Assembly (NCBI GenBank): GCA_029204225.1
Contig: CM055095.1
Location: forward strand, 57,427,898 to 57,491,897
Direction: 5' to 3'
Origin: Diphasiastrum complanatum
Taxonomy: Eukaryota; Streptophyta; Lycopodiopsida; Lycopodiales; Lycopodiaceae
Length of the DNA: 64,000 bases
The notes below the pieces were generated by a model. That model searched no databases. It was not told the origin of the DNA and saw nothing but the letters and a program-made list of their open reading frames with translations. This document shows positions 317 to 47,000 of the stretch, in pieces. The translations under genes were made by a program, and so were the position numbers. Within the stretch, counting starts at the first letter, position 1; each line of letters starts with the position of its first letter.

Positions 317-688
317 CTAGGCTAACGTGAATAGCCTGGTTTTGACTTGTTGTTCTATTGAAGCCTTTTCACAGAGATCTGTTGAAAAAGCTTCCAAGAC
401 TCTTAGTGAAGGTACTAAGAACTCTACGGGCATTACCGCCTCTTGACCATATACTAAGTGGAAAGGTGCAATCCACCCAGTGGCTTTCTTCGGGGTGGTG
501 CGGTAAGCCCAGATAGCTGAGAAAAGTTTTGTTTCCCAATCAGAGCGACTGGTTTCAACTATCTTGGTTAAAATTTTTATAGATCGTCTTGTTAGTTGAT
601 TCAGCCCGGCCATTACACCTAGGATAGTACGGTGTACTTTTTCTATGAACGACCAGGTAATGGCGTAGGAGGTTATCAACGACGGCAT
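317..688 (-). pseudogene. Integrase core, C-terminal half (gypsy)
   Basis: This 123-codon frame contains the far part of the retroviral-type integrase core and the region just after it. The segment DWETKLFSAIWAYRTTPK, followed by a short gap and PFHLVYGQEAVMPVEF, is the typical plant gypsy sequence after the last catalytic glutamate. It is out of frame with the upstream integrase frame at 800-1801, and the bases between (about 690-800) hold stops. In an active element the enzyme inserts retrotransposon cDNA in the nucleus. Here it is a dead remnant. Confidence 0.85.
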
Positions 689-799
689 TTAAAAAATGCG
701 CGCCGCGATCACTAACTAGTTCTATGGGACAGCCAAAACTTGTAATAATATTTTTGTAAAGGAAACGTGCGACTTTTTTGCATTAACGTCCTTCGTTGC

Positions 800-1801
800 T
801 CAAGCTTCAACCCACTTAGTGGCGTAATCTGTGGCTATGAGGATGTAGCGAGCTTGGGTGTGTTTTGCTGCTGGACTGATTGGTCCAATAAAGTCAATCC
901 CCCACTTATGGAAGGCTTCGCTTTCTATAATGGGAGTTAGTGGCGTGAAGTCTGCTTTGGTATTTTTTTTTGCTCGTTGACAGACATCACACGCTTTAAT
1001 GACAGCAAACGTGTCCTTAAACAAAGATGGCCACCACAATCCTGCTTGAAGGATAATCTTCACTGTGGCTTCAGCAGAAAAGTGGCCACCCCCAATGCCC
1101 TCATGAGCCTGAGATATTATCGGTCGTATTTCAGATTCATAAGCACATCGGCGAAGAATGCCATCAATGCCCCTTTTGTAGAGTTGTCCTGCTATTAACT
1201 GAAAGGGTGCTGCTTTTATTACAAATCTTCTTTTTGCTGTTGTACTCAGGCCTTTTTTTAGTCTGCCTGTTGTGAGAAACTGAGTGATCTCCTCAGCCCG
1301 TAAGGGTGTAGCATCAATCTGAAAAAGGCATGCATCAGGGAGATCATCGTTGACTGGTGCAGTTGTTTTTTGAGCACTTGGTAGTCTGGAAAGGTGGTCT
1401 GCCATGAAATGTTGGGTCCCTTTCCGAACGACTACACGAAAATTAAATTCCTCCAAAATCAACAGCCATCGAGCTATGTGTCCCGTCTTATAGGACTTAA
1501 TAACGATATATAGAAGGGCTTGATGGTCTGTGTAGAAAGCAAAGGTCTGGTCTAATAAATAATGCCGTAGTTGTTGTACTGCATAGACCATCGCCAATGC
1601 TTTTCTCTTGGTAGTTGTATAGTTTACTTCAGCAGGCACTAGTTGTTTGCTTAAGAAACGTATGGGAAAGCCTTTGCCATAGTCGTCCGGTTGTGCAAGA
1701 AGACCTCCAATGGCATACTTACTTGTGTCTGTATGCACATGAAATTCTTTCATGTAATCTGGTGAGCGGAGTATGGGAGCCGTTGTGAGGGCTGTTTTCA
1801 A
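800..1801 (-). pseudogene. RNase H plus integrase N-terminal domain (gypsy)
   Basis: The 333-codon frame begins with a Ty3-type RNase H domain ([18 protein letters not shown] near residue 20, then [11 protein letters not shown] and ADHLSRL). An HHCC zinc-binding domain follows (AHEGIGGGH, then CDVCQRAKK), and then the start of the integrase core ([20 protein letters not shown]) with the first catalytic Asp. The frame ends where the core should continue. In the segment [10 protein letters not shown] the position usually held by the RNase H catalytic Glu is Lys, so RNase H is probably dead even where the frame is open. The Asp residues at the other RNase H positions are present. Confidence 0.92.
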
Positions 1802-1819
1802 CTCCTCAAAGGCTTTAAT

Positions 1820-2640
1820 TCATTCTTCGGTCCAGCGAGGATCTACCACAACTAAATAAACGAGACGTGCCTTGCCGGCATAGTCGATTATAAAGATGCG
1901 ATAATAGTTGGTACGACCGAGGAAGACATATACTTCTTTCACTGTTGCAGGTAAAGGCATGTCCATGATAACCTTGATTTTGGACGGGTCGGTAAAAATA
2001 CCGTCATTTGAAATTATATGCCCGAGTACGACCCCATGGGTGACCCATATTTGGCATTTATCAGGGTTTAGTGAGATGCCAAATCTACGATAGCGGATGA
2101 AGATTTTCTCCAGGGCATCAAGGTGCATAGCTATGGAAGAATGTACACCTAAATCGTCGAGATAAATCTCCACGATCCGATGTAACAGATATTGAAAGGC
2201 CAGTTGCATGACCCGTTGGAACGTTGAGGGGGCGTTACATAAGCCAAAAGGCACAACGTTAGAAGTGTAAACCCCATTCTCTGTGGCAAAGGCCGTTTTA
2301 TGTTTATCTTCAGGGACTATTTGAACAAGAAAATAACCGCTGAATCCATCCAAGAAGCTGAAAGCTTCAGCTCCTGCCATTTCTTCTAATATTTGGGTCA
2401 TTAAAGGCAAGGGAAAATGGTTTTTATTCATAACCGCATTAAGGTTCTTGAGGTCGACACAGATACGAAGCTTGCCATTTTACTTGGGTACAACCACAAT
2501 GGGCGATACCCAATCAGTATGTTGGACCTCATAAATGAAGCCATCGTCCAGCAATTTCTTAATATTCCCATCGATCCTCTCACGATAGATGAGGTTACTG
2601 CAGTAAGGTTTAATCCTAAGGCTTAGCATTATCTTCTAAG
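1820..2640 (-). pseudogene. Reverse transcriptase (gypsy)
   Basis: The open part (2431-1820, 203 codons) runs from the palm after the fingers region to the RNase H linker. FSFLDGFSGYFLVQI holds the first catalytic Asp, VPFGLCNAPSTFQRVM is the template-grip region, and IYLDDLGVHS is the YxDD active site, so all catalytic Asp are present. Upstream on the minus strand (2640-2432) another frame continues the N-terminal fingers (a WVSPIVVVPK-like segment). The ATG at 2431 is therefore only an internal Met, not a true start. The frame is offset from the RNase H frame. Confidence 0.9.
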
Positions 2641-5956: not shown

Positions 5957-6440
5957 GCATCCACCTTGTTGTCTGGGTATTCCTCATGCGCTTTAACCCT
6001 AACTTGCATTTCAGTGTTTTTTGTCCTATTTCTCTTTGGCATATTCGGTCGTTCGTGTATATGATAGGTGGCCAAAAGATCTAGGTCATTATTTGGTTCA
6101 AGGAAATATCCTAGCACCATGTTTTCTTCATGATCATATTCTTCATTGTTGATGTAGTTGGGTAGTTCTTTGTCCCAAAGGAATGGATCATATGGTGTTC
6201 CAAAACTATCCTAGATAAAATTATCAAAGTTTACCACCATGTGGTCATCTATTGTCACTTTTTGATATTTGAATAAGCGTTGGATATCAAATGACTCCTG
6301 ATTAATGCATCAGGTGGGGTTTCATGACTCTTGTTATTTTCTTGCTTTGTTACACAATTGCCTATGGATCCAAATTTATAGGGGGGGTCTACACTAGCAT
6401 CTCTGTGCTGATCACCGTATTTGTTGCCATATTTAAGGCG
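5957..6440 (-). pseudogene. Coding-like tract, unidentified, broken
   Basis: Translating the minus strand leftward from about 6440 gives a hydrophilic protein-like sequence (DRLKYGNKYGDQHRDASVDP), then after a shift DIQRLFKYQKVTIDDHMVV, one in-frame TAG near 6212, and a further open run (DSFGTPYDPFLWDKELPNYI, later YFLEPNNDLDLLATYHIHER) ending at a TAG near 5957. Composition is protein-like and not low complexity. I recognise no family. It may be a remnant of a transposable-element ORF or a lost host exon. Confidence 0.35.
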
Positions 6441-6497
6441 GTCCCCTTTAGGAAAACAAACATGATGTGGGCTTGAAAAGCGACAGAATCATCACTG

Positions 6498-6857
6498 TTG
6501 GATAACATATTTGTCGCATGGGATTCAAAGGAAATGGAGCATAAAGGATATTTAATAAGGTGTAAGCTCTCTTGGGAAACAATGACCATAAGCTATCATA
6601 TTTCACGTCAAACATGCTCCTTAAGTTTCATCTATAGGCGATATAAGTTTGGTCATGGCCGATGGGACCCTCTGGACGCGGATACGAATCAGCAAGAAGT
6701 GGAAATATCCATACATTTGCCCCATGATGAAATACGAGAAATTCATATAAATAAGGAGTGTAGCCTAGAAGATCTTCAGCATATGCTTGGATTGACTTTT
6801 GCTGATGTGCCAGCAGATTTTGTCTTCACTCGTAATGGACAAAATGTAAGCCCCTAA
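6498..6857 (+). CDS. Possible exon, unidentified protein
   Basis: A 119-codon open frame whose second half looks protein-like (VEISIHLPHDEIREIHINKE, then a helix-like SLEDLQHMLGL and ADFVFTRNGQN). The alternation of strands and one helix is loosely like a ubiquitin-type beta-grasp, but that is only a shape impression. The sequence AAAATGTAAGC at its end would make a good splice donor, so the real exon could end near 6846 rather than at the TAA. The minus strand is also partly open here. No partner exon was found before the H3-like locus at 7.4 kb. Confidence 0.3.
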   Translation: MDNIFVAWDSKEMEHKGYLIRCKLSWETMTISYHISRQTCSLSFIYRRYKFGHGRWDPLDADTNQQEVEISIHLPHDEIREIHINKECSLEDLQHMLGLTFADVPADFVFTRNGQNVSP

Positions 6858-7332
6858 TTTCCATCAGATTCTTGAATTTTAAATAGTAATGTTGAATACA
6901 TGTAGGATTACTAATTTTGTGTCTGGTTTTGCATATACGGAGACGAGCCGAAAAAGATCAGAAATGTGTTTCATTTTTACAAACAGGGACATTAGGAGTC
7001 CAATGGGAATAAAGGATTTTATCTAATGAAAATTAGAAAACACAATTAGTTGGCTGTGTTTTGACTCTATTCTAATATATTTGGTTATGTTTCGACTTTA
7101 CTTTTGCGTTGTCACATTTTATATGCCTGTTAGTACATTTTTGGATGTCCAATGTTGAAACTTGTTAGGGTTTTAATCGTTTAGTGATATGCATTTTAAT
7201 ACTATTACTGGTTTTCTTTGAAGGTTTCCGCTAACCGACAATTAGGATTTTTACTCTAGACAAGAACATATTATATTTGGAAAAGAGGCCAAAACTTTTA
7301 TAGGTGCACTTACTAAAAATAGAACCCTTCAC

Positions 7333-7339
7333 TATATAA
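7333..7339 (+). promoter_or_regulatory. TATA box upstream of the H3-like gene
   Basis: TATATAA lies in the context TTCACTATATAAGGG, about 130 bases before the likely start codon at 7467. The leader between is pyrimidine-rich (TTTCTCCACTTTATCCC). Spacing and context fit a plant core promoter. That it drives the H3-like locus is inferred from position. Confidence 0.5.
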
Positions 7340-7466
7340 GGGTGTTTGGGTCCTCATTTCTCCACTTTATCCCTCGAGTGTCAAAGTGTCAATTTTTTTA
7401 GATTCTCTTTTTTTCATCTCTCGTGCTCTCTGATACGTTTTCAAAGGCTAACCAATGTCAGAGGAA

Positions 7467-8661
7467 ATGTCATGGACGAAACAAACGGCTAGAGATCCCA
7501 GAGTGACTACATTGCTCTATAGGGATGCACTAGCCACCCTCGATGAGAGAGAGAGATGGGGGAACAGGAGCAGGAGTAGGAGTCACAGCCCAACAGCGTC
7601 TCAGGAAGATCCGGCCACTCAGCCTGAAGCTGAGGAGGACATGGCCCACACAACAGCTGCACAGGAGGACCAAAGTGAGCAGCAACAACAAGAAGACCAG
7701 TAGCAGCAGGAGGACCAGCAGCAGCAGCAGCAGCCACCACGACAAAAAAGTCCTTCCCCGACGGCAACTGCGGAGGAAGAAACAATGAAGTTCCTAGATG
7801 AGGAGCTTGCGGCATCAGGTGAGTTGTCAGTTCTTAATGATGCTTTCTTCGACCCATTTCCACCAGCAATGGGCATGGACACAGCAAATTTAGGCATATC
7901 GGGTGACACCACACCCACCGTGTCACCCCCAAGTCACGACCCGGTGATGGGTCCGATGATGTCGTTACTGGTGGGTGGTTCTGATGAGGGCACCCCGATG
8001 TCGCACACAACAAGGATGAAGCAGAAGGTGACCCATAGAGGGTCAAGGAGAGGACCAAACGAGCGAAAGAGAAAGAATCCTCGCAAGGCAGGCTCTACAT
8101 CAAAGCGACGGAACCCTGCAGCTCAGCAGTCATCACCATTGCCCACACCGCCAACACTGCCTCCACCACCTCCACCTCCACCTGCACCACCTCCTCCTCC
8201 ACCGCCTCCACCACCACCACCTCCTCCACCACCTCCACCACCTCCAAGTTCTGCCGCAGCTGGCCCAAGTAGAACCATAGAGTGTGGCAGGGGTAGGCCG
8301 GCCCCTCGTGCAGCACCATGGGCTAGAAAGGAGCTTCGCAGGATGCGGCCACCACCTCCTCAACTGCGTAGGAAGCGCAGGATCGCAAAGTGGCTCCAAG
8401 ATATACGGAACTATCAGAAGTCCGTCAAATTTCTTATACTTAGGGCCCCTTTTGTGAGGCTTGTAAAAAAAAATAATCGATGAATTTTCCTTGGAGAACA
8501 AAGTTACGGCAGATGTTGTGTCCGCAATATAAGAGTCTGCAGAAATGTACCTAATGCAGCTTTTTGAGGACTCATTTTTGTGTGCAGTACACGGGAAGAG
8601 AATCACAATACTCCTGAAGGATCTCCACCTAGCTAGAAGGCTAAGGAGAGAGCGCAGTTAA
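7467..8661 (+). pseudogene. Histone H3-like protein with giant proline-rich N-terminal tail, disrupted
   Basis: The C-terminal 88 residues (about 8394-8661) align without any gap to the H3 core: LQDIRNYQKS (alpha-N), APFVRLVKK (alpha-1), then after a frame change [20 protein letters not shown] (alpha-2), [22 protein letters not shown] (loop 2, alpha-3, C-terminus). From Met at 7467 the protein starts MSWTKQTARDP, matching the H3 start MARTKQTARKS. Between these lie about 300 residues: an RSRSRSHSP run, a Gln/Glu-rich stretch, basic segments (RKRKNPRK) and about 30 prolines. Lesions are an in-frame TAG at 7701, an extra A in an A9 run near 8465-8473, and a TAA at 8530 where H3 has Gln. Loop 1 has canonical H3 length, two residues shorter than typical plant CENH3, although APFVR is CENH3-like. 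Outside ATG 7455 is an alternative start. An unseen intron or recoding could rescue the frame, but a pseudogene is the simplest reading. Confidence 0.85.
8141..8248 (+). repeat. CCT/CCA polyproline repeat inside the H3-like tail
   Basis: A run of CCN codons (mostly CCT, CCA, CCG) encodes about 30 prolines broken by one Ala and a few Thr/Leu. It is read in the same frame as the upstream tail and the downstream basic region, so it is part of the protein. The minus strand is correspondingly open in several frames, which are shadows. Confidence 0.85.
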
Positions 8662-9129
8662 AAATATCATGTACATGCCGTGGCGTGAAAATCACGCCAG
8701 GGCGCGACCAAGGCCCATTTGACCTGGTCAAACAGGCCTTGGTCGTTCTCATAATTTTTTACAGTTCTTGCTAATTTCTTTCGAGCACTCAAATGTTTCA
8801 TGGAATTCAAAGGTTGATGCATTTCAATTTGTAAAATTTTAAAATAACCCCCCTTTTCTAAGTTGCAATTAATCCATTTTTTGAATTCTCTTAAAAATTT
8901 TGTAAGTTTTTTATTTCAGCTCGGACTTCAGTTGAGTAAAACCAAAAAGTGATCAGAACGACGAGCCTGACACTAAGAAGCTATCGAAATTTTGTAATTA
9001 TTACTTTTCAATTTTTTTTCAAGATCCTTTTTTTTTTTTTCCCCTTAAGTCAAATTTCCTTGTATTTTATTTGCTTATTTTCAAATCCTCATATTGTTTT
9101 CACAAGTTTGATTGTAGAATTGCTCATAT

Positions 9130-11389
9130 GGATGTGAGAGTATGGTTGGACAACTTTCACAGGTATTTTCAATCACATCCAAGTAGTGACCATGACAAGA
9201 TTCAATTTGCAGGAACATACCTTGATGGATCTGCAAAAATCTGGTGGCAGTATTGGATAGTGTGAAGAACCTAATATTATCACTGATAAATGGCCAATCT
9301 TTGTACAAAAGTGCATTGAAGAATTCGAATGTGCAAATGGTCAAACATGGCATTCTACCCAACAAATGTCTACTGTGGAGAGCTATTTCAATGACTTCCA
9401 TCAGATAATGGACAGATATGGCTATTCGGTGGAGGAATTTAATACAATGCGCTTTATTTTAGGCTTGAAACCCAAGATAAGAGCTTGTTTTAGTGAATAA
9501 AACTTGTAACATGGGACATATCATACGGTGGTTACTTTTGTTGTTCGAGTTTGATTTCATGATAGTGGTGCACAAGGGAAAGCAACACTACATGACAATT
9601 CATGTGTCGTGAATCAAATGGAAGGAAACGACAATTCGACCTGATGATGAGCTACCCGATGTTGTCTTGTTCTATGTTGACATAGTACCAGATTGGACTG
9701 CTGATATAGTTGAATACCTAATGCGGGGCCAACCAGACAAGGCATTACCAAAGGCGGATATAAGTTAGTACTAAAAGCCAGACCATATCAGCTGATTGCC
9801 CAACCAATTATACCGATGAGGATTTGATAACATCCTCCGAAGGTGTGTCCTTCCACATGAAACCACCCAAATCATATCGTTATCACATGAAGGTATAAGG
9901 GGGGGGGGGGGGGGGGGTGTCATTTTTCATCTCAAATTATAGTTCGCTAGATTCTGCAATCAGGATGCTGGTGGCCACCAACAATTCATAAAGACATGGA
10001 AGAATACCTAAGAAAATGTGATGTGTGCCAGCGAGCTAGAAGACCGACAAGATTGAACTATGATTTATTACATCAAGTCTTGGCTCAAACACCATTCGAG
10101 AAGTGGGGATTGGACTGCATCGGTTCCATCCACCCAGTAGTCATGAGCTCACAAGCCCGATATATTGTCATGGCTACGGATTATCTCACCAACAAATGGA
10201 TAGAAGCCAAGGCGGTACGAGTGGCTCATTCTAGGACTACTGCCAAATTTTTATATGAATATATCATTGTGCGCTTCGGATGCTTGGTGGATAGTTAGCA
10301 ATCGCGGAAGTCATTTCGTCAATGAGACCATCAAGGTCTTATTGGAAGAGTTCTTTGTGATTCATCGATTCAGCACGCCATATTATCCTCGAGGTAATGG
10401 GCAGGTAGAATCATCCAACAAGATCTTGTGTAGCGTTATCATGAAAATAGTTGAAGCTAGAAGATCTGATTGGGAACATAAGTTACATGTTGCTTTGGTG
10501 GCATTCAAGAGAGCATACTAGAAAGCACAGATTAGACGCCATTCCAACTGGTTTATGGTCAAGATGTTGTAATGCTAGTGGAGTTTTTGGTACCATCATT
10601 GAGGATTGTCACTGTTATGTCCATGTCTGTATAAGGGAATCCAAATAATTCCTGACGTGGATAGTCGGTCACTCCAGTTGTATGTGGTTATTAGTTATGT
10701 TATGTCATTCCGAGTGTGGTCCGTTACAAGTAATTAATAATCATATGAGGGCCCAGACCTATAATTGGACATAGGAGCACTTGCATGGTGTATGACTGCT
10801 ATAATGCAAGAATCGGAGGTCAATAGCTTAATATAGACTGCATGTCTCCTCTTGGAGAGAATACATACCATGGAAACTCGCCCATCTCCCTATTGGAATT
10901 TGAGATTCTTGTATTCATTCATTGTGGCTTGGGGGTGAAGGGTTAGGGTATTGACTAGCCTCTTGATGTTGGTCGGGTGGTTTATGCTCCACAAGTGTCC
11001 TTTTGGTTTGCATGTGACAAGATTCTCGAAGATATTCGCTTGGCGATTGTTATAGCCACCACACAACGTCTTGATGAATCCAAATATCTACAACTGTGCC
11101 ACGAAGATCTACACAAACTTTGCGAGATTCGCTTATTGGTTGTGCAGCCGAGAAAGCGTGGTGCAAGGTATGGCATGATCGTCGGCTACACAAGAAATAT
11201 CTTCGCCCTGAAGATCTAGTCCTAATGTACAAGACCAAGGCGATCAAGGAAAAGTTGAAGTTCATCGGCAAAGGCCCGTACCGGATCAAGGAAATCCCCA
11301 TTCATGGAGCCGTGAAACTTGAACATCTTGATGCCTTGGTAGAAAAAATAAAAAGCAAACACAAAATTAGTTTCATGCAATGCAACTAG
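9130..11389 (+). mobile_element. Ty3/gypsy retrotransposon, internally deleted and degenerate
   Basis: Plus-strand order: gag fragment 9130-9265 (VRVWLDNFHRYFQSH, GSAKIWWQYW); RNase H tail near 9515-9620 (LLLFEFDFMIVVHKGKQHY); linker 9640-9890 (RPDDELPDVVLFYVD); integrase zinc domain and core 9976-10298 (RKCDVCQRARR, WGLDCIGSI, MATDYLTNKWIEAK); core continuation 10270-10521 in another frame (NRGSHFVNETI, YYPRGNGQVESSNK); C-terminal domain 11150-11389. Protease and most of RT are missing, and there are many stops and shifts. The linker and HHCC region resemble the element at 1-2.7 kb (compare SHEGI with AHEGIGGGH), so both belong to one family. LTRs were not recognised. A stretch at about 10640-11090 has no clear pol match and may be an insertion or decayed core. 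Confidence 0.88.
9899..9917 (+). repeat. Run of 19 G residues
   Basis: An uninterrupted G19 lies exactly where the gypsy zinc-binding domain should read His-Glu-Gly-Ile-Gly-Gly-Gly-His (the bases before it encode SHEGI). It looks like a mononucleotide expansion of Gly codons and shifts the frame. Confidence 0.85.
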
Positions 11390-14086
11390 CTCTTGTTATG
11401 ATCAACCATTTATTCTCATTATTAATAACATTGTTATTTTGTTGTATCTTAAACATTTCATATCCCCATGGATTCCACATTTAATTAAAAATATTTATAA
11501 AATTTGCAAGCAGAATTCCTATGGTGGTGATGTTCTTGATGTTGACGATCTTAATTTCTCAAAGAAGAAGAGGGTAGATGATGGTGGGAGTTTCCTCAAG
11601 TGTATCGTAGTGGAAACATGTGAAGTACCCACATGAGTTGGCTTCTATTTCAATACATAGTGTCTAAAGTAAGACTACTAATAAAGGTGAACACAAATGT
11701 TAACTAGATACAAGAGCCAATTGATGGCAATGCTACAATTGCCATTATACAAGCTTGGTCGTGGGCACGCACCTACAAATGAAGCTAATAGATTCAATGT
11801 AGGTACAATCACCTCACAAATGTACATGAAACTCATTACAACGCACATTACACAAATGTTCCAATTGGTGATAGATTGTGCATAACTATACAAAAGTATT
11901 CCAGTGTGACGCTAATTGCTAAAATTGCAAGTGCTATCGATGACATCCATATAAGGTTGCAAACAAAACCTAGTAAAAAAATACTACAAACCAAATATAA
12001 GTATTATTCAATCATACTGCATCGGATGTATGACTTGGAATAGATGTTCCAAACACTTATTGCGTTAAAGTTGGAGGTACTCATAATGCGACATACTTCG
12101 AAATGAGCTCCTTGCACCAAAATATGCTAATGTCAATATATTGTAATGAGCCATATTGCAATGAACAAGAGAAAAGTTTGCCTCAAGAATGTTTTCTCCC
12201 CCATAAAGAATTGTTGAAGAATTTTGAAAAGCTAGACGTGGACATCAAATACAACGCACAAGTTTTGTGTTGTGCATCATTTATCAATTTTAGGTTGAGA
12301 GAGAATGTAAGATAGGTAGCCTTTGATGAGAGTCCATGATAGGTGCATTCTTGCTTGCCCAAGAATTTGTGAGGCTTTGATCACCAATTTGTCTCGTAGA
12401 AACATGGTCTGTGCCAAAGGGCAAGCAAGCCAAAATTTGAAATGACAAAAGTTGTTTTCGATAATAATATTTTAACCAACCATGAAATTCTTTGATTACT
12501 TAATTTTTTATAGTGTTAGGAGATGTGTTCATTCCCCTTGATGAACAAATAAAAGTATTTTTGTTGTCATTGTTTCTATGTAAGATAATGAGAACCATTC
12601 ATTGAAGCCTTTATTTTGTGGCTTCATTTAGCATCGTGGCAACAATTACTCAATAGTATGTCTACAATGAGGGTCTCCAAAAGAATGCTTTTAAGTCTAT
12701 TGCAATACCATGTATGAAAATGCTTTAAGACTGTTGTAGTTGTAGTATTGCACCATGGCCTTACAGTTTCTAATGCAAGGTCTCAAACTAATTTAAGATT
12801 TGCTTTCAAAGCAAGCTTTTGCAATTGTTGTTTGCCTAAGTAAATCAATGCACCCATTTGTTAAGTTCATAAACTATGATGTAGTAAAACTATGTAATTC
12901 ATGGAGTCTAATACAAACCCAAAAATGTATTTCCTTCACTACAGCCAACTAAGCTGTTGGACACAATACCAACTGCAATCACTCTACTTATGCAAAAAAA
13001 CCATATCAAAATCTAATCATTGTAAATTCATAGTGCAATTACATGCATGCTTACTACAATGCTATGTTTGAAAATCCTTTTGATTCTAGTGATGTAGTAC
13101 TACAACATGGTATAATAATTTCAAGTGTAATATTTTGAGCTAATTTAGGGGCTTGCTTATGTGTTGTTTGTTATCTTTACATGTTTGTTGTTCATGATCA
13201 AACTAGTGCAATGGTTCATGTAAACTTCATGCCATTTTTTTGAGAAGCAAAAGCAAGAAAAATGTGGAACAATCCTCCATTTCAATACACATTGAAATTG
13301 TTATCTTAGTTTGGAATCACAAAGCTCTAAAGTTTGCATTATTGCCAATACAAAATACAAATCTCGTGTCATTACAATATTACTATGAATAATTAATAAT
13401 CTTGTGATTGAGAGACATCTCTAAATTCCAAACACTACATTACATATGAACCCTAAAACCATTTTATTTGAATCTACATCGCTTGCATTATCATCATGGC
13501 AATTTGCTCTTGGCTTACAAGTTTATTTGTTCCTTGTCATTCTCGTGCACCTAGTATCATTTCCAAAATCTTCAACTCTTTTTTTTCTTGTCATGCCTCC
13601 CACAAGTTTCTTGTATGTTGATTCTTCTTCTGAATTTCCATCTTTGCTCATTCAATCTTAAAATACCCCTCACTAAAAGATTTCATAAATGCTCATCAAA
13701 AAAGTCTACCATAGCCTTGTAGTATAGTGAAATCAATGTTACTTTTTTATTTCAATGCCTTCTCACAATATTTGCACTTTAGCTCACCTTGCATACTTCT
13801 AATCTGGCATCTCTTACCATACAAACCAATGATCTTAAGTGTTTCCAAAGTACTTAAGAGTAGTCACTTGTGTTGGTTTCTCTCTAATGCGTGTGTTTTC
13901 ACCTTTCTACAATTTCACCATGCTTGATTGATGGATTCATGCATTCCAAGTGCAAATGCACATCCTCGCCTCTCGAATGGTAGTCATCCAAAGAGTTAAC
14001 AATTTGGCTTGTGATAGCAGGCCTTTGTGGAGCACAATCTGAGGCTATTGCAAAACATAGGTTTTCGTGTGTCATCAATGTTTAAC
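11390..14086. other. AT-rich stretch with no recognised gene
   Basis: Short frames (70 codons or fewer) show no family features on either strand. Direct and inverted repeats are not obvious. It may be old intergenic or transposon-derived DNA. Confidence 0.5.
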
Positions 14087-14435: not shown

Positions 14436-16340
14436 CTTGAATTTCCAAAAGTGTCGCCTGCTGCAGTACCTTTTGAAATAATGCTTTGAAAGGGCTTTTA
14501 TTGTCATTCAATTCTACTACCTGTTCGCGAATCCTTCGGAAGAGTATTCCAAATTGAAAATCACTGGAAATAATTTCTTGCTTCCAGGTTGCAATGAAGA
14601 AAAATAACGCTTAGGACTCCTTCCGGTAATTCGCTAAAAACATTCAAGCCAACATGTGCTGTTTGGCAAAGTGTCCACACAAACTCTGAATATAGAGTCA
14701 CTAGATTCTTCAATTTGCGATGAGCAAAGGCCCCACTGAAGACTGAAACCATGATTAAAAAAGAACGACCTCTTTGACAAGGAAGTCCATTGGCTTGCGT
14801 TGGCTTGCAACAACTCAAAACATCAACACAGAGAAACAAACTGAATCTGAGGCACAAAATCTCCAATGCTTCAATGCTAAGATATATACTCTATAAGCAG
14901 GCAGCTTAGTGAGACGTAGTAGATTATGTCAAAATTTGTAATCTAGATATAGCAGGCTGCTGATTTCTGGTCTAATGAGAAGAAACTGTCAACTGGTCAG
15001 ATAATTGTAGTCTGTTTTATGTCATCATAAAATATACGAGAAAAATATCATCATCCCAGTTGTGGATTATTTTTGAAGACCAAAAATCAAAGAAAAACAT
15101 ATGGATAAGGCCAGTTACTGTGAAATCTACAATTGATTTTCAATCACTTGTTAAAGATCTAGAAAGTCCTAACATGTGTCATGTACCAATGATGATTATC
15201 CTATAGCTGAAATAAGCTCTCAGTAGTTGTGAGCCTTTGAAACAGAGAACAGTAATGTGTATTTTCTTCAGTAGAAGCAGTTCAATGGACTCAGAAACTA
15301 TGTTTATATTGTTCACTTTTGAAAGACAATCCACTTTCCTGACGACAAATAACTCATCGATAACAGACCTCCAACCTAGAAAATGGAGGCACTGAAAATT
15401 GAGTGATCCTCAGAATAAATTATCTACACCTGCTGAAGGCAGTCAGAAGTTTCTTTGAAACGCCATCACAGGACCACAATAGATGAGGGTTTGCATGTTC
15501 GCTTCTGGAATAACCTAAAAGTTCCAACGAATAAGTCTCTAAAATAGATTATTTGCACTCCAAACCTCTCACAAACAGATATACCCAAAAAGTACACTTT
15601 CCTGGTAAGCCCAAACAAAATAAAAACTCTTAAAACATGGAGCCTATCGGAAAAATAGAATTTGTATCAAGGCTCAGTAGGATCCATTGGTATATTTTGA
15701 TCGTCGAAGGCTTAGCCTTCTTCACAAAATAGGTAAGTCTTAAATCATCATAGCCTCGGCAGAGGAAGCCATCCTCATCAAAAAGAAAAAGTTAACGAAC
15801 AGAAATACGTTCAATCTAGACACACATAGTCTTAAAAAACGAAAACCCAGTGATATGTCAATTCAAGCGGATTCCAAAGGCCACATTTCTTGTCCTAAAG
15901 ATGACATCCAGTTGACGCTCTTAATCAATCAAGCAACCAGTAGGCCGAGGCAACCAAAACCTAATAGATCAAGAAAGAAACAACTAATAGATCAAGGCAA
16001 CGAAAAACTAATCCAACTAGACACTTGACAGACACAGTTTGATATAACAGTCTTATGTCAATCCAAGCGTGTTCCAAACCAATAGATCAAGCCAAGAAAA
16101 ACTAATAAATCTAAACATTTGACAGACATATAGTATAACAAAAGTAAAGCCATTGTTACGTCAAATCAAGCGTGATGCAAAGGCTACAATTCTTGTCCCA
16201 AAGATAACATAGAGTTATGCTCTCAATCAAACAATCAGTCAACCAATTAAACAGGCAAAACTAATAGATCCAATCAAGGAAAAACTAATAGATCTTCATA
16301 TAATACATGTCGCTGGATCTATAGCCAAAAGAATAAATGC
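14436..16340. repeat. Non-coding stretch with a degenerate tandem duplication at its right end
   Basis: From 14436 to about 15840 I see no gene. From about 15853 to 16330 two diverged copies of a block recur. The first, at 15853, reads TGTCAATTCAAGCG and later CTTGTCCTAAAGATGACAT. The second, at 16156, reads CGTCAAATCAAGCG and later CTTGTCCCAAAGATAACAT. A partial third copy is at 16054, and CTAATAGATC units are interspersed throughout. Confidence 0.6.
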
Positions 16341-28093: not shown

Positions 28094-29103
28094 TCAAATA
28101 TGTAACTTTAAAATGCTATCCTTTGTGGGAACGACATTATTTACTACAAAATCTATATTAACCTTGTTGGTATAGTACGACAGCGTGTGCTGCATGATCT
28201 CTTTCTCTTCGTCAAAGTCTTTGGACAATCTTTGTTTGTCAAAATTGTTCTTGCAAGCATTGGGGTGTTTGCCCCTTTGCAATCTGTCATCCCGAAATCA
28301 TCGAGGATCTTCTGGATGTACCTGGACTGATGAAGGTATAGCTTTCCTTTGTCATGATCATGGTTGAATTGCAAGCCTAGATAACATCTGGCTTCTCCTA
28401 GGTCTATTATACCAAAATGTTTTGAGATGTCGTTCTTCACTAGTATCAGTGTGTCGTCCACGTGCACAACAACAATGATGATCTCCCCATCTGTGATCCT
28501 TATATATACATTGGAATCGGCCATCAGTGGCCCGAAACCCAATGATAGTAGGGCATGATCTTTCTTCTTGTACCATTGTTGCACGGATTGTTTCAATCCA
28601 TATGTACTGTGCATTTGGCAAGCATAGGTGGGAAGTGATTCACAAATGTAATCCAGAGGTTGATCCATATAGACTTCTTCGTCTAATTTTCCATGCAAGA
28701 ATGATGTCTTCTCATTGACTATGTGAATCCTGAGGTCATAGGCGGCTGCATATGCAAATAGAAAATGTAGGGACTCATGCTTCACGACTGAAGAGAAGGT
28801 CTTGATGTAGTCGATGTCATACTTTTGAGAAAATCTCTTTGCTACTAGTCTAGCTTTGTACCTCGAAACATTTCCATTCGGTCCGTACTTCAGCTTGTAT
28901 ACCCATTTGCATTGCATTGTCTTCCACTTGTTTGGTACTGGCTGCAGTGTCCATACCTCATTCTTCTTCATGGATTTGATCTCTTCATTTATGGCTTGGA
29001 TCCATTTGTCCTTGTCTGGACTGTTGATGACTTCCTCGAATGTTTGTGGTTCATCACTGAACCCACAGAACTCTTCGGATGTCGAAGCCGAGCTGCCTGG
29101 CAC
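28094..29103 (-). pseudogene. Copia reverse transcriptase
   Basis: The frame 29103-28153 carries the copia RT entry ([57 protein letters not shown]), the palm (SFLHGKLDEEVYMDQP), TYGLKQSVQQWYKK, and the catalytic loop as VVHVDDTLI. The two Asp are kept but the usual Tyr of YVDD is His. The frame continues to SRYIQKILDDFGM and then loses the RNase H by frameshift near 28210. RNA-dependent DNA synthesis would be its role, but the copy is dead. Confidence 0.92.
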
Positions 29104-30030: not shown

Positions 30031-31265
30031 CTTGAGATTAAGATCAATCTAGATCAATTCTAGACACAAAATCCTAGCAAGAACAATCATTAATTGAAGG
30101 TAGGTGTACTTTCTGGTTTCACACATGTGAAACACTGTCTGAGTATGGACTCCACCCTGAAAATCAAGTACACATTGATAGAACCTCAAAACAATCAAAA
30201 CAAATGTAGACAAATGGAGAGAATCACTCAAAATTGCTTCCAAAATCAAGATTGGTGTCTCACATTGATTATGGCCAAATAAGCCTCTATATATACACTT
30301 TTGGAGCTCGAGGTACTGATCATGCATCAGATCTCACATGTGTGAGGATGCCTTGTCACCATCATGCAATTTGACACTTGGATCAAAACTTTTTATTTTG
30401 GGCATTTTTGGTCTATTTTCCTACTATATGGAGATATTCATGTAAATCTTCTAGAAGCAAAAACTCGCCTACTTCAGCTATTTCCACACGTGTGAGCTGT
30501 CCTCTACACATGGGATGTGACACCTATTCAAAAAATTTGGCTCATGCAATCATTAGATTGGTGCCATGTGTCATATCTCTAGAAAACTAGTTTTTGGCCA
30601 TTTTAGCCACTAGAACTTGGATTAAATCATATGTACAACATATATGATTATTTACTTGAGATTAAGATCAATTCTAGACACAAAATCCTAGCAAGAACAA
30701 TCATTAATTGAAAGTAGGTGTACTTTCTGGTTTCACACATGTGAAACACTGTCTGAGTACGGACTCCCTTTGAAAATCAAGTACACATTGATAGAACCTC
30801 AAAACAATCAAAACAAATGTAGACAAATGGAGAGAATCACTCAAAATTGCTTCCAAAATCAAGATTGGTGTCTCACATTGATTATGGCCAAATAAGCCTT
30901 TATATATACACTTTTGGAGTTCGAGGTACTGATCATGCATCAGATCTCACATGTGTGAGGATGCCTTGTCATCATCATGCAATTTGGCACTTGGATCAAA
31001 ACTTTTTATTTTGGACATTTTTGGTCTATTTTCCTACTATATGGAGATCTTCATGTAAATCTTCTAGAAGCAAAAACTCGCCTACTTCAGCTATTTCCAC
31101 ACATGTGAGCTGTCCTCTACACATGGGATGTGACACCTATTCGAAATATTTGGCTCATGCAATCATTAGATTGGTGCCACGTGTCATATCTCTAGAAAAC
31201 TAGTTTTTGGCCATTTTAGCCACTAGAACTTGAATTAAATCATATGTACAGCATATATGATTATG
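30031..31265. repeat. Tandem duplication, unit 624 bp
   Basis: Copy 1 (30031-30654) and copy 2 (30655 to about 31265) both begin CTTGAGATTAAGATCAAT and end ATCATATGTACARCATATATGATTA. By eye they differ at a small number of positions, so the duplication is recent relative to the surrounding pol decay. Each unit carries several palindromes built on CACATGTG/CACGTGTG. No coding function is seen. The unit sits between copia gag (31.4-31.84 kb) and integrase (29.3-29.95 kb), both minus strand. Confidence 0.93.
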
Positions 31266-32606: not shown

Positions 32607-33483
32607 ATGGTTTACCGAGCGAAAAAGATACAGATCCTTAGATCTGACAATAGAGGTAAATACAAAAGCAAAGAATTCTTAAGATTCTGCGAAGAACAGG
32701 GGATAGAACACCAGTTCACTCCTGCATACACACCAGAATACAATGGTGTTGCAGAAAGAAGAAACATAATGCTAGTCGAAGGAGTCAGATGCATGATGGC
32801 AAAGGCTCAGTTGCCAGGTCAATTCTGGGCTGAGGCAATAGCTACAGTTGTACACCTGCAGAACAGATCTACAATGACAACGCTGGAAAACAAAACACCA
32901 TACGAAATGTGGACAGGCAGAAAGCTCGATCTGTCATACGTACGAGTGTTTGGATGTCCAGCATACAAGCACATTCCAAAAGAAAAAGAAGCAAGCTCGA
33001 TGACAATTCTAAGCAAACAATCATGGTCGGTTACTCGAACAGAACACATGTGTACAGGCTCTACAACCCGTTTCGAACAGAGATGTGAAGTTCGATGAGT
33101 CCACATTCCCTGGACTAAAAGACGAAAGAGGCCATGAGATTTTCACATTGCTGCCTATTCAAGAGGGAGATCAAGGACAGACATCAAATCAGAATGCAGA
33201 GTCGCAGACTCCAAAGCAGCAGGAGGCAGAGGATCAACCCCACGAACAAGAAATGTTCGAGCAACGACGAAACGAACCTAAAAGGTCAACAAGACAAAGA
33301 AGACCTCCAGACCGCTACTCTGACAATCTTCAATGGAGCGAAGACATGCAGTTTGAGTACTGTAGCTTCACTGAAGAGCCAACAACATACCAAGAAGCTA
33401 TCCAGAGTCCAGAAGAGGGAGAATTCTGGAAGCAGACAATGTCAGAGGAGATCGAGTCGATGAGGAATGGAATAGAACAAGAA
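32607..33483 (+). pseudogene. Copia integrase core (second half) and linker to RT
   Basis: It starts at KKIQILRSDNRGKYKSKEF, which holds the second catalytic Asp, then QFTPAYTPEYNGVAERRN with the catalytic Glu, QFWAEAIATVVHLQNR and PYEMWTGRKLDLSYVRVFGC. After a frame change near 33090 it continues as RFDESTF and a Gln/Glu-rich linker (RSTRQRRPPDRYSD), ending at SEEIESMRN before an insertion. The first catalytic Asp and zinc domain are absent. Confidence 0.9.
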
Positions 33484-33860
33484 GCAGCAAAAACTAGATA
33501 GACATTTTTCTGATTGCTAGGGAGTATTTATCTAGCCATGAACCAATTGAAGAAAGCTCTAATAAGCTAAACTCATGTAATTTGTATTTTCATGCTTGAG
33601 TTGGAGTCGAGCCTGTGATTGGCTGCTCAGTTTGGCTGATTTTTGCTCACATTCTTGAGTGCATGCAGGTTGGAAAACAGTGGATAAGAATGTATCTAGG
33701 AAGATCCAGATCTACTGAGTGAGCAGGTTTGTACTTATCTTCAGTGTTTTGAAGTTAAACTATTTTGAGCTAAGAAGAAGGTGGTAATCTCATAGGCTAC
33801 CATGGATACTTTTTTGCCAATTATCGATGTGCAAATCCTCACTTGGATGGATTTTCAGAT
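33468..33860. mobile_element. Insertion of about 393 bp within the copia RT entry
   Basis: The coding sequence stops after ...EEIESMR and resumes exactly with KNEAWTLEPLPENRK at 33861, the normal next residues of copia RT. The intervening DNA is AT-rich and non-coding. I see no terminal inverted repeat and no clear duplication beyond a few A residues, so its class is unknown (it could be SINE-like). Confidence 0.6.
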
Positions 33861-38545: not shown

Positions 38546-38587
38546 GGAAAGTAGAACGAACACAATCCTAGTGAGCAGGTGAACGAG

Positions 38588-39600
38588 ATGCACGACCCGG
38601 GTGAAGAGGAAGATTTACCCGCGGAGCACGAAGCAGTCTTGGCTGCGCAAGAGGCAACAGGTGCATCCACATCAGCGGAGCTAGAAGATATAGATGAGTC
38701 CGATGATGTCGTGCTTCGAATCCATGGTCTTGCTCCAATCATCATTGATGGGCAAGAATATGTGTTCATGCATGACTTGCAATATATTCTCGGCTTGCGA
38801 GAAGATGAGATGCTGGCAGCATTGTTAAATTTGCAGAATGGCAGTTCCACTTTCGACCACACCCAGCCCGACGACACGTATGAGAAGCTGATCGGGCATG
38901 ACACGGACACCACTGAGCAAGCACTAGCAAGAGTGCTTTGCCAATTGAAAACGCTTCAACCACCGCCAGTTCAAACGAGGCCATTCGAGGTACTCGAAGG
39001 AAAAACTGATGACGTGAAATACAAAGGCAAAGGAATTCAGCTTGCACAAACCGAAGACATTGATGAAGGGACCGAGGCAAGTCTGACCCAACAATTCAAC
39101 TTGTGTATTTTTGTTATGTTTGTTTGTCTTCATTATACTCATTTTGCAATAATTTGAACCAAATGCAGGATGCAGTGGAGCTTGATGCATTTGCTATGCG
39201 AAGGGGTGGCGTTCAAGAGAAAGTTGAAGCAGGAACTCTGGAGAGGTCTATGGCCCACTACATTGGGAACTTGCCCAACAACTTTATTTTAAGCTTCAGC
39301 AACAAGTACAGCCCAGATGGACTGACGGAGCTTCTTAAATGCAAAGCACTCTCCAAGCACATTGATGAGGTGGAGTTGTCACTGTCAGCGCCAAAGGCTT
39401 ACTGTGTCCTCCGAAAAGCCGTTTTGAATGATTTCTGCCCTGGATTCGAGACCCGGCTCATTCTCTCAGGTTTAATTGGCCCTTATGAGAATGAGAGTGA
39501 TGCTCCTAAATTAGGATTAGAAATGTTAAAACCAGTATTGTCATCAGAAAGGCGATCAGAGAAGCTGAAGTCCTCTCTGAAGGAAATGGATCGAAAGTGA
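38588..39600 (+). CDS. Two-exon gene, unknown function, probable GC-AG intron
   Basis: Exon 1 (38588-39076; the frame is open back to 38555) starts MHDPGEEEDLPAEHEAVLAA. It is acidic, with a folded-looking middle (VVLRIHGLAPIIIDGQEYVF, LQYILGLREDEMLAALLNLQ). Exon 2 (39169-39600) continues DAVELDAFAMRRGGVQEKVE, has a further domain (HYIGNLPNNFILSFSNKY, APKAYCVLRKAVLNDFCPGF) and ends KSSLKEMDRK before TGA. The break is explained by a 92-nt intron with donor GAG/GCAAGT and acceptor ATGCAG/GAT, both phase 0. AG/GCAAGT is the known strong GC-AG consensus. No stop or shift breaks either exon over about 300 codons, unlike the transposon relics around it. I recognise no family. An upstream exon is possible because CCTAG and GAGCAG acceptor-like sites precede it. 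Confidence 0.6.
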
Positions 39601-44004: not shown

Positions 44005-47000
44005 GTATTGAGTTATGCTTGATATTTTATCTCCATGAATGTTAGTTTTCTTATTCTAGATAGATTGGGTTCTTCATGCTTGTAATGTAAATCTGATTTA
44101 GATGTGAGCTTTGTTGAAAAAATTACTCATGCTTGCAACGACAAAAAGCTTGTCACATTGTTAGTATGTGTGCAAGATATATGATTTGTTTGTACACCAT
44201 ACAAGTAACTACTTAGAAATTGTACACTATGTAGTGTTTAGTAAGCAATTTTTTTTTTTTAAAGTGATTGCTTATGTTATGTTAAATTTTTTTATGTGAG
44301 TTCAAATCAAATTCCATGCATTGCAACTTCTAAACTTTTGTACACCGAAACCTCAAGGAGGATCATGGTTTTGCATTTGGATTTTGATCAATGCTATTCT
44401 ACTCCGTTCAGGGCATCGATGAGTAAAGGCTGAACAATGAAGCCAAATTTTGTTATGGACATTGAAGCCAGATTGTACATTAATAATGAAGATTCAAGAT
44501 CCAAGTAATTGTAACTGCATCGTGAAAATGTTTGCACCCTAAGCCTAGAACCAATGGTTGTAGTTTTTTGCTATAACATGTAAAATTTGCATTGAAAGTT
44601 TTTGGTTTGTTTCAAGTCTTATTTGCTTGCATGGTCTTGCAAGGTTGCACCGGAGGACAAGATTTTGAGGATTTTCTTCCTCTTCAAATCCAAGTTTTCT
44701 TAGTTGACAAGTTTGGGCAACACAATGCAATTGAAATTTACGTCTCGTTGCTTTGAGTTTTAAACGCAGTGCATGTTGAATCTTGATCTTGTATTGTAGT
44801 TTAGGGTATGTGATGATGCTTCCATAAGTGTATATTTTGACTCTTGAGTATTTGTAGCCTCTCCACTCATTTGAGATAGCTTTGGTATGCTATTACATTT
44901 AACATTTGTTCCATACACTATACCTTTTCTCCACATTCAGGGCGACATTTGGCTATATTGGAATTTGGAGGTGATATATGTTAGCATATTCATTAATGTC
45001 CAGACTCCATATATAGTTTATCCCTCCATACGTGGGGCAATCATTGAAACATGTGGCAAAATATATGGAATTTAATGTATGAGCATATGTGTTAGAAATT
45101 AATTAATCCATTAATTTCTAACACTCCCCCTTAATGGATAATTGATTATCAATTACACCTAGAAGTGTCATGAACTTCTCAACCTTTTCACGACCAAGTC
45201 CTTTTGTGAAGATATCTGCAACTTGATCATTGGTGTCACAGTAGATCAACTCTACTTCACCACTCAGCAACTTTTCTCGTATGAAATGCTGCTGAACTTC
45301 AATATGTTTTGTCCTACTATGAAACACCGGATTCTTCGCAAGCTGAATGCAACTCTGATTGTCACACCAAAGTATGTAGGTTCAACTTGTTCTATATGAA
45401 GATCTTTTAGAATCCTTTGTAACCAAATTGCTTCACAAGTTGCTGATGTAGTAGCCCTATACTCTGCCTCTGTAGAAGATAAAACAATCGTTTGTTGCTT
45501 TTTACTACTCCAAGATATTGGTCTAGTTCCAAGATTAAATTTATATCCTGTAGTCGATCTTCTATCTTCTGTATTTCTTGCCCAGTCAGCATCAACAAAA
45601 CCCTCAAGTTTATGTATGTTCCTTTACCATAATGAATGCCAGACCTGAGTGTCCCTTTGACATAACGTAAAATCCTCTTTGCTGCTTACCAATGACAAAC
45701 TTTTGGTAAAGACATGAATTGACTCACCATACCCACTGCATATGAAATGTCTGGTTGAGTAGTCGTTAGAGAAATAAGACTATCTACAAGCTGCCTATAA
45801 AGTGTTTCATTCACACTTTCAGAGTTTTCCTCTTTTGTAAGCTTTACACCTGGATCATAAGGTGTAGTAATGGACTTACAATCAAGCATGTCAAACTTCT
45901 TGAGTTAGACCTGCAAAACTTCAATACCCAAACAGTACTGAAGACTCTCCAAGTCTTTCATATCAAATTCCTGTGAAAGATTTCTTTATCTTCTCTATTA
46001 GTGACTTATTTGACCCTGTGATCTAAAGAACAATAATGACTATGTCATCTAAATCTCTCTTAATATATAGTGTTGACTCTGACATGCTTTTATGAAAATT
46101 CTGCTTCAAAAAATAATTGTTGATGCGTATATACCATGCTCTAGGTGCTTGTTTCAACCCATATGATGTTTTCTTTAACTTGCAAACCAAGTGCTCTTTG
46201 CCTTCAACCTCATAACCCTGAGGTTGCTCCAAATAAACCTCCTCTTCAAGGTAACCGTTCAAGAAAGCACTCTTGACATCCATTTGTTGAATATCCCATT
46301 CAAAATGAGATGCAATCGCCAAAACACTCCTCAAAGTATTCATTTTAGCAACAGGTGCGAAAGTATCTTCGTAGTCAATTCCTTTCCTCTGAGCATATCC
46401 TTTGGCTACTAATCTGGCTTTATACCTATCTATAGAACCATCAGACTTAAACTTGGTTCTATAAATCCACTTGCAACCAATGGGTTTCTTACCTGCTGGA
46501 AGTTCAACAAGATCCCATGTCTCGTTTTTCATAATCAATTTTGGTAGAGTAGTAGAGAATACTATTTGCATGTACATGAGGTACTTGCACCATAGAGGAC
46601 TTGGAGGACCCATGCCTCCTCTCTTGTAAGTTTTGGTGTTGTGAGGTGCTTAAGCAATTTCCCCTGTGTTTGATGTTTTCCATAACTAAGTTTCTCAAGC
46701 TTTCATGGTTGATCTAGTATTGTAGTTAAGACACTCCATAGCTAGTCCTTGCAATCCATCATGGTATCTGTTAGAATGCCCATCGTCGTGCCGGTCATTG
46801 CTAAAGCACAAACAGGTGACGAACGCTACGTTACCACCCAACCATAGAGGTACTACCACCTCACCCCCGTGCACTGGAGCTATAGACCACCATCAAGCAA
46901 GCTCGGATCTCCTGTAAGCCATGGTGTCCCATACTGTTAGAAATAATAAATGATAATGCTAGTTTCCCATAGGTTACTTTGATCCAAAAGGTCGAGACTT

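Follow-up and report, generated by a model that had tools for sequence, protein, structure and literature searches.

A histone H3 gene borne by a dispersed inverted-repeat element in the clubmoss Diphasiastrum complanatum

The unusual histone H3 gene found in the window (the whole analysed stretch of 64,000 nucleotides from Diphasiastrum complanatum) is a truncated and decayed copy of an H3 gene that belongs to a dispersed inverted-repeat element. The probability that this odd H3 is the gene of a mobile element, scattered through the genome in many copies, is put at about 0.93. The full explanation, in which capture, transposition and a mechanism of action are inferred in addition, is considered likely. 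Three families of the element (A, B and C) were distinguished, with neighbouring genes denoted P2 to P5; the window copy belongs to family A.

Features of the window copy are listed in Table 1. Stretches homologous to the 14 fetched family-A copies (blastn) cover 6387-7152 and 7244-8677. The encoded start, read from ATG 7467 (or from the in-frame ATG 7455), is MSWTKQTARDPRV...; most sister copies begin with MARTKQTAR, the exact start of histone H3, where the window copy has MSWTKQTAR. The upstream ATG is kept in all 15 family-A copies, and the codons from it on read MSEE in 14 and MSEK in one. The TATA-like box lies at -135 in 13 of the 15 copies (window counted) and at -129 in one; in the remaining copy none was found. 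From ATG 7467 the frame reaches the A run at 8465, and the H3 fold resumes when read from 8467. The repeat unit at the end of the fragment, about 70 bp long, recurs in direct and inverted orientation 3' of H3 in other family-A copies. In family A, where H3 and P2 converge, such units occupy the space between the two genes and can form strong hairpins; they could be a source of double-stranded RNA or a terminator of both the H3 and the P2 transcripts.

Table 1. Location of the features of the H3 gene copy and of the second family-A fragment in the window
Feature	Position	Strand	Basis or remark
Surviving family-A element fragment, neither terminus present	6387..8749	+	blastn and terminus scan
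P3 remnant (upstream orphan gene of the element, C-terminal part)	6477..6854	+	tblastn; homologues in A and B
TATA-like box CTATATAAGG	7332..7341	+	135 bases 5' of ATG 7467
In-frame upstream start MSEE	7455..7466	+	ATG 12 bases before 7467
H3-type N-terminus MSWTKQTAR	7467..7493	+	H3 = MARTKQTAR
Lysine-4 codon	7479-7481	+	
Codon for D where H3 has lysine 9	7494-7496	+	directly after MSWTKQTAR
Long tail, RS/SP-, Q/E-, K/R- and proline-rich	7494..8363	+	about 300 residues
Premature TAG in Gln run	7701..7703	+	in frame from ATG 7467
Proline-coding tandem repeat	8146..8246	+	inside the tail
Histone H3 fold, alphaN to alpha3, ending RRLRRERS	8364..8658	+	about 98 residues with the alphaN region counted
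A run with frameshift	8465..8473	+	one extra A
Premature TAA in fold	8530..8532	+	Q in 3/3 annotated sister proteins
Natural stop	8659..8661	+	
Double hairpin	8677..8747	.	z -6.5
Repeat unit at the fragment's end	8674-8749	+	blastn and terminus scan
Second fragment of family A, with orphan gene P2	38555..39704	+	frames 38579-39154 and 39103-39597

The fold of the window copy matches the histone family PF00125 at E 5.8e-20 (72.2 bits, cut-off 26.4), and the best PDB chains, named H3.1/H3.2, were matched at E 3e-22 over query residues 1-83. When compared with a textbook canonical H3, 42 of 84 fold residues are identical without gaps; the likeness to H3 is far beyond chance. An earlier note on this DNA had described an H3 fold at 7467-8661 (+) behind an unusual tail of about 310 residues, with a loop 1 of H3 length that set it apart from ordinary CENH3; this description is borne out, the tail being read here at about 300 residues. 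The accidental adjacency of tail and fold, which the note had named as its possible undoing, is ruled out: start and fold are joined in the same order and on the same strand in all 14 long family-A loci, and tail and fold are therefore one gene. The join is also backed by three annotated D. complanatum proteins (P0002-P0004) of 102-105 residues, whose first residues, MQPPPP, fall within the last part of the tail. These were the only proteins at E <= 0.001 among 32 candidates in a protein search with the fold; they match family A and share 77-81% identity with the window copy. Direct searches for longer protein relatives gave none that scored, the first query being rich in low-complexity words. 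An AlphaFold model of P0003, made from three rows, reached a mean pLDDT of 62, too weak for a structure search.

A six-frame search of the D. complanatum genome gave 6325 first-look candidates for PF00125, of which 150 were scored; they contain at least 153 matches, and all counts are lower bounds. Thirteen rows (E about 1e-45) are canonical H3 of 136 residues, each beginning with MARTKQTARKS. The non-canonical rows among the matches listed (E 1.6e-28 to 2.3e-20) are spread over small contigs and every one of the contigs C1-C23; several have open frames above 300 residues. All 27 different non-canonical loci that were fetched, namely the 17 best-scoring and 10 chosen for long open frames, belong to family A (16), B (10) or C (1). 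The latter 10, together with longer views of ten of the 17 best-scoring loci, were read as twenty stretches of 9.9 kb (14 of family A, 6 of family B). The distance from the H3 start (MARTKQTAR, up to 2 changes) to the end of the fold is 1.18-1.25 kb in 14/14 long family-A loci. One of these is open from start to stop, with 412 residues from MAR; the others carry stops or shifts. The H3 genes of A and B gave no DNA alignment at E 1e-10. In family B (L041-L043, L045-L047) the H3 has a tail of about normal length and a C-terminal extension of about 200 residues with a basic stretch, and its fold scores 98.6 bits against PF00125. Family C, represented by one locus (L018), has the start MARTKQTAREP, a long broken tail and a fold 43% identical to that of A.

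Family A carries inverted repeats at both ends and is present in many dispersed copies, both of them marks of a DNA transposon. In five A loci unrelated flanks give way to the element at one shared point, CATTAGGGCCC..., which reads CGTTAGGG in one of them, and a sixth retains the first terminal bases followed by a deletion. The terminal 29-mer CATTAGGGCCCTTTTTGGACTCAAAAAGG occurs in the genome 695 times forward and 651 times reverse (up to 1 mismatch), compared with 0 + 0 for the reversed control. Six facing pairs were selected for a match to the 29-mer at both ends; in these the likeness of the two ends continues, with mismatches in some pairs, to about 34-37 bp. A 3-bp target-site duplication (aat) was seen in one of the six pairs and none in the other five; some terminal-inverted-repeat DNA transposons lack such a duplication. 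One terminus was seen in family B, and none in the single locus of family C.

The length of the family-A element is inferred to be about 8.7-8.8 kb, from the left part of the fetched copies and a right part given by the distances between P2 and the terminus. On contigs C1-C3, which hold 29 of the 150 P2 rows, a right-hand terminus could be assigned to 11 rows from the 100 places listed out of 1346; the listed places are perfect matches only and end within C3, so that the other 18 rows prove nothing. All 11 termini are on the expected side and strand, their distance from P2 being 4808-4836 bp in ten cases and 5169 bp in the other; for four of the 11 rows the left terminus is present as well. 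The pair C2:61995433-62004169, known from its ends alone, spans 8737 bp. The pair C3:64723712-64735091 (11.38 kb) holds both H3 and P2; its size was rejected as the element length, since L034 and other fetched copies have a left arm shorter by about 2.6 kb. In three smaller pairs, of 7.1-8.1 kb, P2 lies nearer the left end, which suggests that some elements lost part of the H3-bearing arm. Two further pairs of facing termini, C1:67871296-67872435 and C2:51500810-51503470, are only 1.1 and 2.7 kb apart and are probably short non-autonomous derivatives; the end sequences of the C1 pair were among those read.

Family A has the order P4/P3 (+), H3 (+), hairpin repeats, P2 (-) and the C-terminal end of P5 (-). 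Family B, when turned round, shows the same succession of P4/P3, H3, P2 and P5, and its H3 and P2 point the other way. In family C the H3 is followed downstream, on the other strand, by P2 (42-51% identity). Thus P2 adjoins H3 in all three families, and P3/P4 and P5 are common to A and B, whose element genes match as proteins at 26-57% identity. The parts of P2, P3, P4 and P5 that were read, in family A up to the last 4 kb or so of the right arm, gave no significant Pfam match (best E 0.015), including to any known transposase domain, and among PHROG matches none was convincing (best E 0.07); the PDB searches covered P5 and P4. A BAH-like identity for P4 was dropped, with no Pfam or PDB support. 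P5 would be the likeliest transposase, and the element would then transpose as DNA; P5 presumably resembles an uncharacterised protein family of animals and protists. The orphan P5 at L041 2061-3615 (counted on the H3 strand), a candidate transposase, contains the segment HLAGDLKTLKCMYNVSH..HPCLYC.

The ends and target sites seen do not match those of the CACTA and hAT superfamilies. The ends are CATTA in A and CACTC in B (one end seen), the 3-bp duplication is found in only one of six A pairs, and the parts of P2-P5 read contain no Pfam match to the CACTA (EnSpm) transposase family. An 8-bp duplication as in hAT elements was seen in none of the six pairs, and no hAT dimerisation or DUF659 domain was matched in the same parts. 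Carriage of the gene by a Gypsy element was discarded: the element homology ends at 8749, and neither flanking long repeats nor a convincing primer site was found.

The linkage of the two genes is visible genome-wide. An H3 row, out of 134 (the listed rows minus 13 canonical and 3 partial), lies within 3 kb of 35 of the 150 listed P2 rows, in 35/35 cases downstream of P2 and on the opposite strand. Random placement on the large contigs, each taken at a nominal 55 Mb, was run 200 times and never linked more than 1 P2 row to an H3 in this way. With P2 as its neighbour in all three families, the H3 would seem to be a long-standing component of the element, even if most copies are broken. For the remaining 115 P2 rows there is no H3 within 3 kb among the matches listed, and in the window no H3 adjoins the second family-A fragment, which is 91.9-94.0% identical to the 12 fetched loci spanning it; some elements may therefore lack H3.

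Over the gene regions of family A, compared for the window copy and for all long loci except L049 (13 of 14), the median difference is 4.9% among the copies and 9.4% between these and the window copy. With the base of the other copies taken as ancestral, 14 A copies have 332 private changes, of which 235 are C>T or G>A, a share consistent with methylated cytosines having decayed. With 72 private changes, 39 of them C>T or G>A, the window copy is by this count an older, dead copy. The dN/dS ratio (Nei-Gojobori) of the fold is 0.44 in A (16 loci) and 0.24 in B (10 loci), values lowered by the choice of loci according to HMM score and long open frames. P2 (0.54 and 0.52) and P3 (0.35 and 0.32), which were unused in choosing the loci, still have ratios below 1. 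The tail gives 0.64 (a middle stretch of 130 residues, 15 copies), two P5 parts in B give 0.41 and 0.81, the latter with a wide range, and the head gives 1.13, again with a wide range; all ratios are rough, owing to the strong C>T mutation bias. As sequence evidence, the likeness of the A, B and C proteins where the likeness of the DNA is gone weighs more than dN/dS.

Applied to 28 element loci (the window copy and the 27 fetched), a pattern that tolerated 3 changes located the start of the H3 gene in 25; it favours kept residues and misses very diverged starts, three of the 28 loci giving none. Lysine 4 is kept in 25/25 readable starts. Position 9 is D in 21, G in 3 and E in 1 of them, and lysine in none, whereas the host's canonical H3 has lysine 9 in 13/13. 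All three families share the motif M-x-R-x-KQT-x-R with a residue other than lysine at position 9, and one old capture before the families split would therefore be the simplest, if unproved, reading. Beyond residue 9 the tail is no more H3-like than its shuffles, which were as good in 1978 (A), 4077 (B) and 1621 (C) of 5000; homology between the remaining tail and the H3 tail (K14-K27) had looked suggestive and failed this control, and a loss of lysines 14-27 accordingly cannot be claimed. The first ATG in family A puts MSEE before MARTKQTAR, so that the H3-like residues might not form a free N-terminus.

Methylation of H3K9, with feedback of the KYP/CMT3 type, maintains the silencing of plant transposable elements. 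It is proposed tentatively that the element supplies its own H3 and so escapes H3K9-based silencing. The element would express its H3, and this protein, with fold and tetramer positions preserved, could pair with host H4; residues C110, H113, R116, D123, L126 and R129, which we take to be H3-H3' or tetramer positions, are retained in the alignment of family A. This H3 would be deposited on element DNA or on a replicating or transposing complex, where, with lysine 9 replaced, it could not take the methylation that sustains silencing; the long basic, proline-rich tail might add DNA binding or recruit a partner. The outcome would be evasion of H3K9-based silencing, with the H3 acting as an anti-silencing histone. 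Somewhat less probable still is the broader form of this idea, a long-standing plant transposon lineage that builds silencing-resistant chromatin on its DNA with an H3 in which K4, an activating site, is kept and K9, a silencing site, is replaced. Histones are among the slowest-changing host proteins, and the keeping of an own H3 while the families diverged suggests selection for a role in chromatin. If this H3 does evade H3K9 methylation, transposon escape by means of own nucleosome parts becomes directly testable, and histone replacement would be a transposon weapon in the epigenetic arms race. Counts of histone genes, catalogues of H3 variants and searches for CENH3 in this clubmoss will catch transposon genes, as the three annotated proteins already do.

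H3-bearing hAT transposons of fungi and viral H3 genes are known; from the fungal transposons the clubmoss case differs in element, divergence, tail and permanence. H3 genes are carried by fungal hAT transposons of Pyrenophora tritici-repentis (H3L), with 26 H3-bearing copies of which 23 are seemingly functional, and of Pseudocercospora fijiensis, with hundreds of copies, all inactivated (PMC6710886, PMC3538342). These resemble the clubmoss element in being inverted-repeat DNA transposons of many copies with an intronless H3-like gene. The fungal elements are reported to have a transposase of the hAT type, inverted repeats of 18-20 bp, a target duplication of 8 bp and an H3 captured from the host's own, whereas the clubmoss element has no hAT domain in the parts read, orphan genes, no clear target duplication, a diverged H3 (52% to the host in A) behind a tail of some 300 residues, and three families. 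Single viral H3 genes, reported for xenomavirus and sylvanvirus, are likewise parasite-encoded, and one has a tail 35 residues longer; they sit in viral genomes, unlike the clubmoss gene, and have 75-77% identity to animal H3 (PMC9145170). VANC of the Arabidopsis VANDAL transposons is a plant transposon protein that undoes silencing (PMC5735166); the likeness is one of purpose only, a comparison of how things work, with the role of the clubmoss H3 putative. VANC acts sequence-specifically and is not a histone, whereas the clubmoss element encodes one. No plant or clubmoss H3 borne by a transposon was recognised by title or abstract in a literature search that included few subscription papers.

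Several other explanations of the gene were weighed. The earlier note had suspected a dead copy of a live, unusual plant H3 variant: the copy is dead, its build is unusual and one open relative was found among the 14 long A loci, but the gene is that of a high-copy inverted-repeat element, which rules out a host histone variant gene as the identity of the window copy. That a host variant gene (of sperm, for example) was amplified inside repeats while a live gene remains elsewhere is very improbable; P0002-P0004 are annotated as plant proteins, yet they match family A, and all 27 fetched non-canonical loci are element families, a sample that a single intron-bearing host locus could escape. An integrated DNA virus carrying H3 is no more credible, although viruses with single H3 genes exist (PMC9145170) and the element has several orphan genes: the element is small, with inverted repeats and 1346 terminus matches, no PHROG match was convincing, and the P5 and P0003 queries found no relative in IMG/VR by a method that detects close relatives only. 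In the element parts read, no capsid or viral replication gene was recognised. It is also quite improbable that a centromere-type H3, derived from CENH3, takes the element to centromeres or kinetochores. Like CENH3 (CENP-A), the gene is a divergent H3 with an altered tail; Gln68 is absent from all families (V, Y and M in A, B and C), the APF segment is present in each, and LIPRAPF presumably resembles grass CENH3. Loop 1 is one residue longer in B, whose fold is equally near rice CENH3 and host H3 (54% each), and the fold of C is 45% identical to rice CENH3 and 44% to host H3. But A and C have a loop 1 of H3 length, the fold of A shares more residues with host H3 (52%) than with the CENH3 of rice (48%) or of Arabidopsis (44%), and the listed copies are numerous, element-borne and on all large contigs. 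The H3/CENH3 tree that the earlier note had suggested groups A, B and C apart from both H3 and CENH3 at 91/95, below the tool's star; it has 18 rows, of which 6 are textbook sequences, an arbitrary root, and long branches (B with C) that were flagged.

Two further explanations accept the element and question the role of its H3. A host H3 captured by transduplication, as in fungi, might be a passive passenger that does nothing for the element; this is unlikely, even with the fungal precedent (PMC6710886, PMC3538342), the single open frame among 14 long A copies and the many P2 rows that have no H3 nearby among the matches listed, since three families keep an H3 next to P2, with folds 42-47% identical, and dN/dS is below 1, if on a chosen sample. 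A part for the fold and basic tail in a transposition complex, as a DNA-binding accessory outside host-like nucleosomes, is rather doubtful but would suit the divergent fold, the long basic, RS- and proline-rich tail of A and the basic C-terminal extension of B. The H3-H3' positions and the H3 start that are kept would be needless for a mere DNA-binding part. The reading preferred here remains that of an element gene whose product may serve in chromatin.

The window holds further features. Two plant C/D snoRNAs, snoZ155 at 14991-15061 (-) and snoR41 at 15667-15760 (-), score above the Rfam cut-offs. The open frame 57207-57584 (+) is taken to encode an RRM belonging to a plant splicing factor of the RS type. 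Gypsy-like pol and gag/integrase remnants were read by eye at 317-2431 (-) and at about 9100-11390 (+), the latter decayed and adjoining the window copy, and Copia-like pol fragments, also by eye, at 28153-29103 (-), 32607-33501 (+) and 46023-46613 (-). Tandem copies of 600 bp, 97% identical, occupy 30051-30651 and 30665-31264, and a perfect 70-bp tandem duplication lies at 58860-58929 and 58927-58996.
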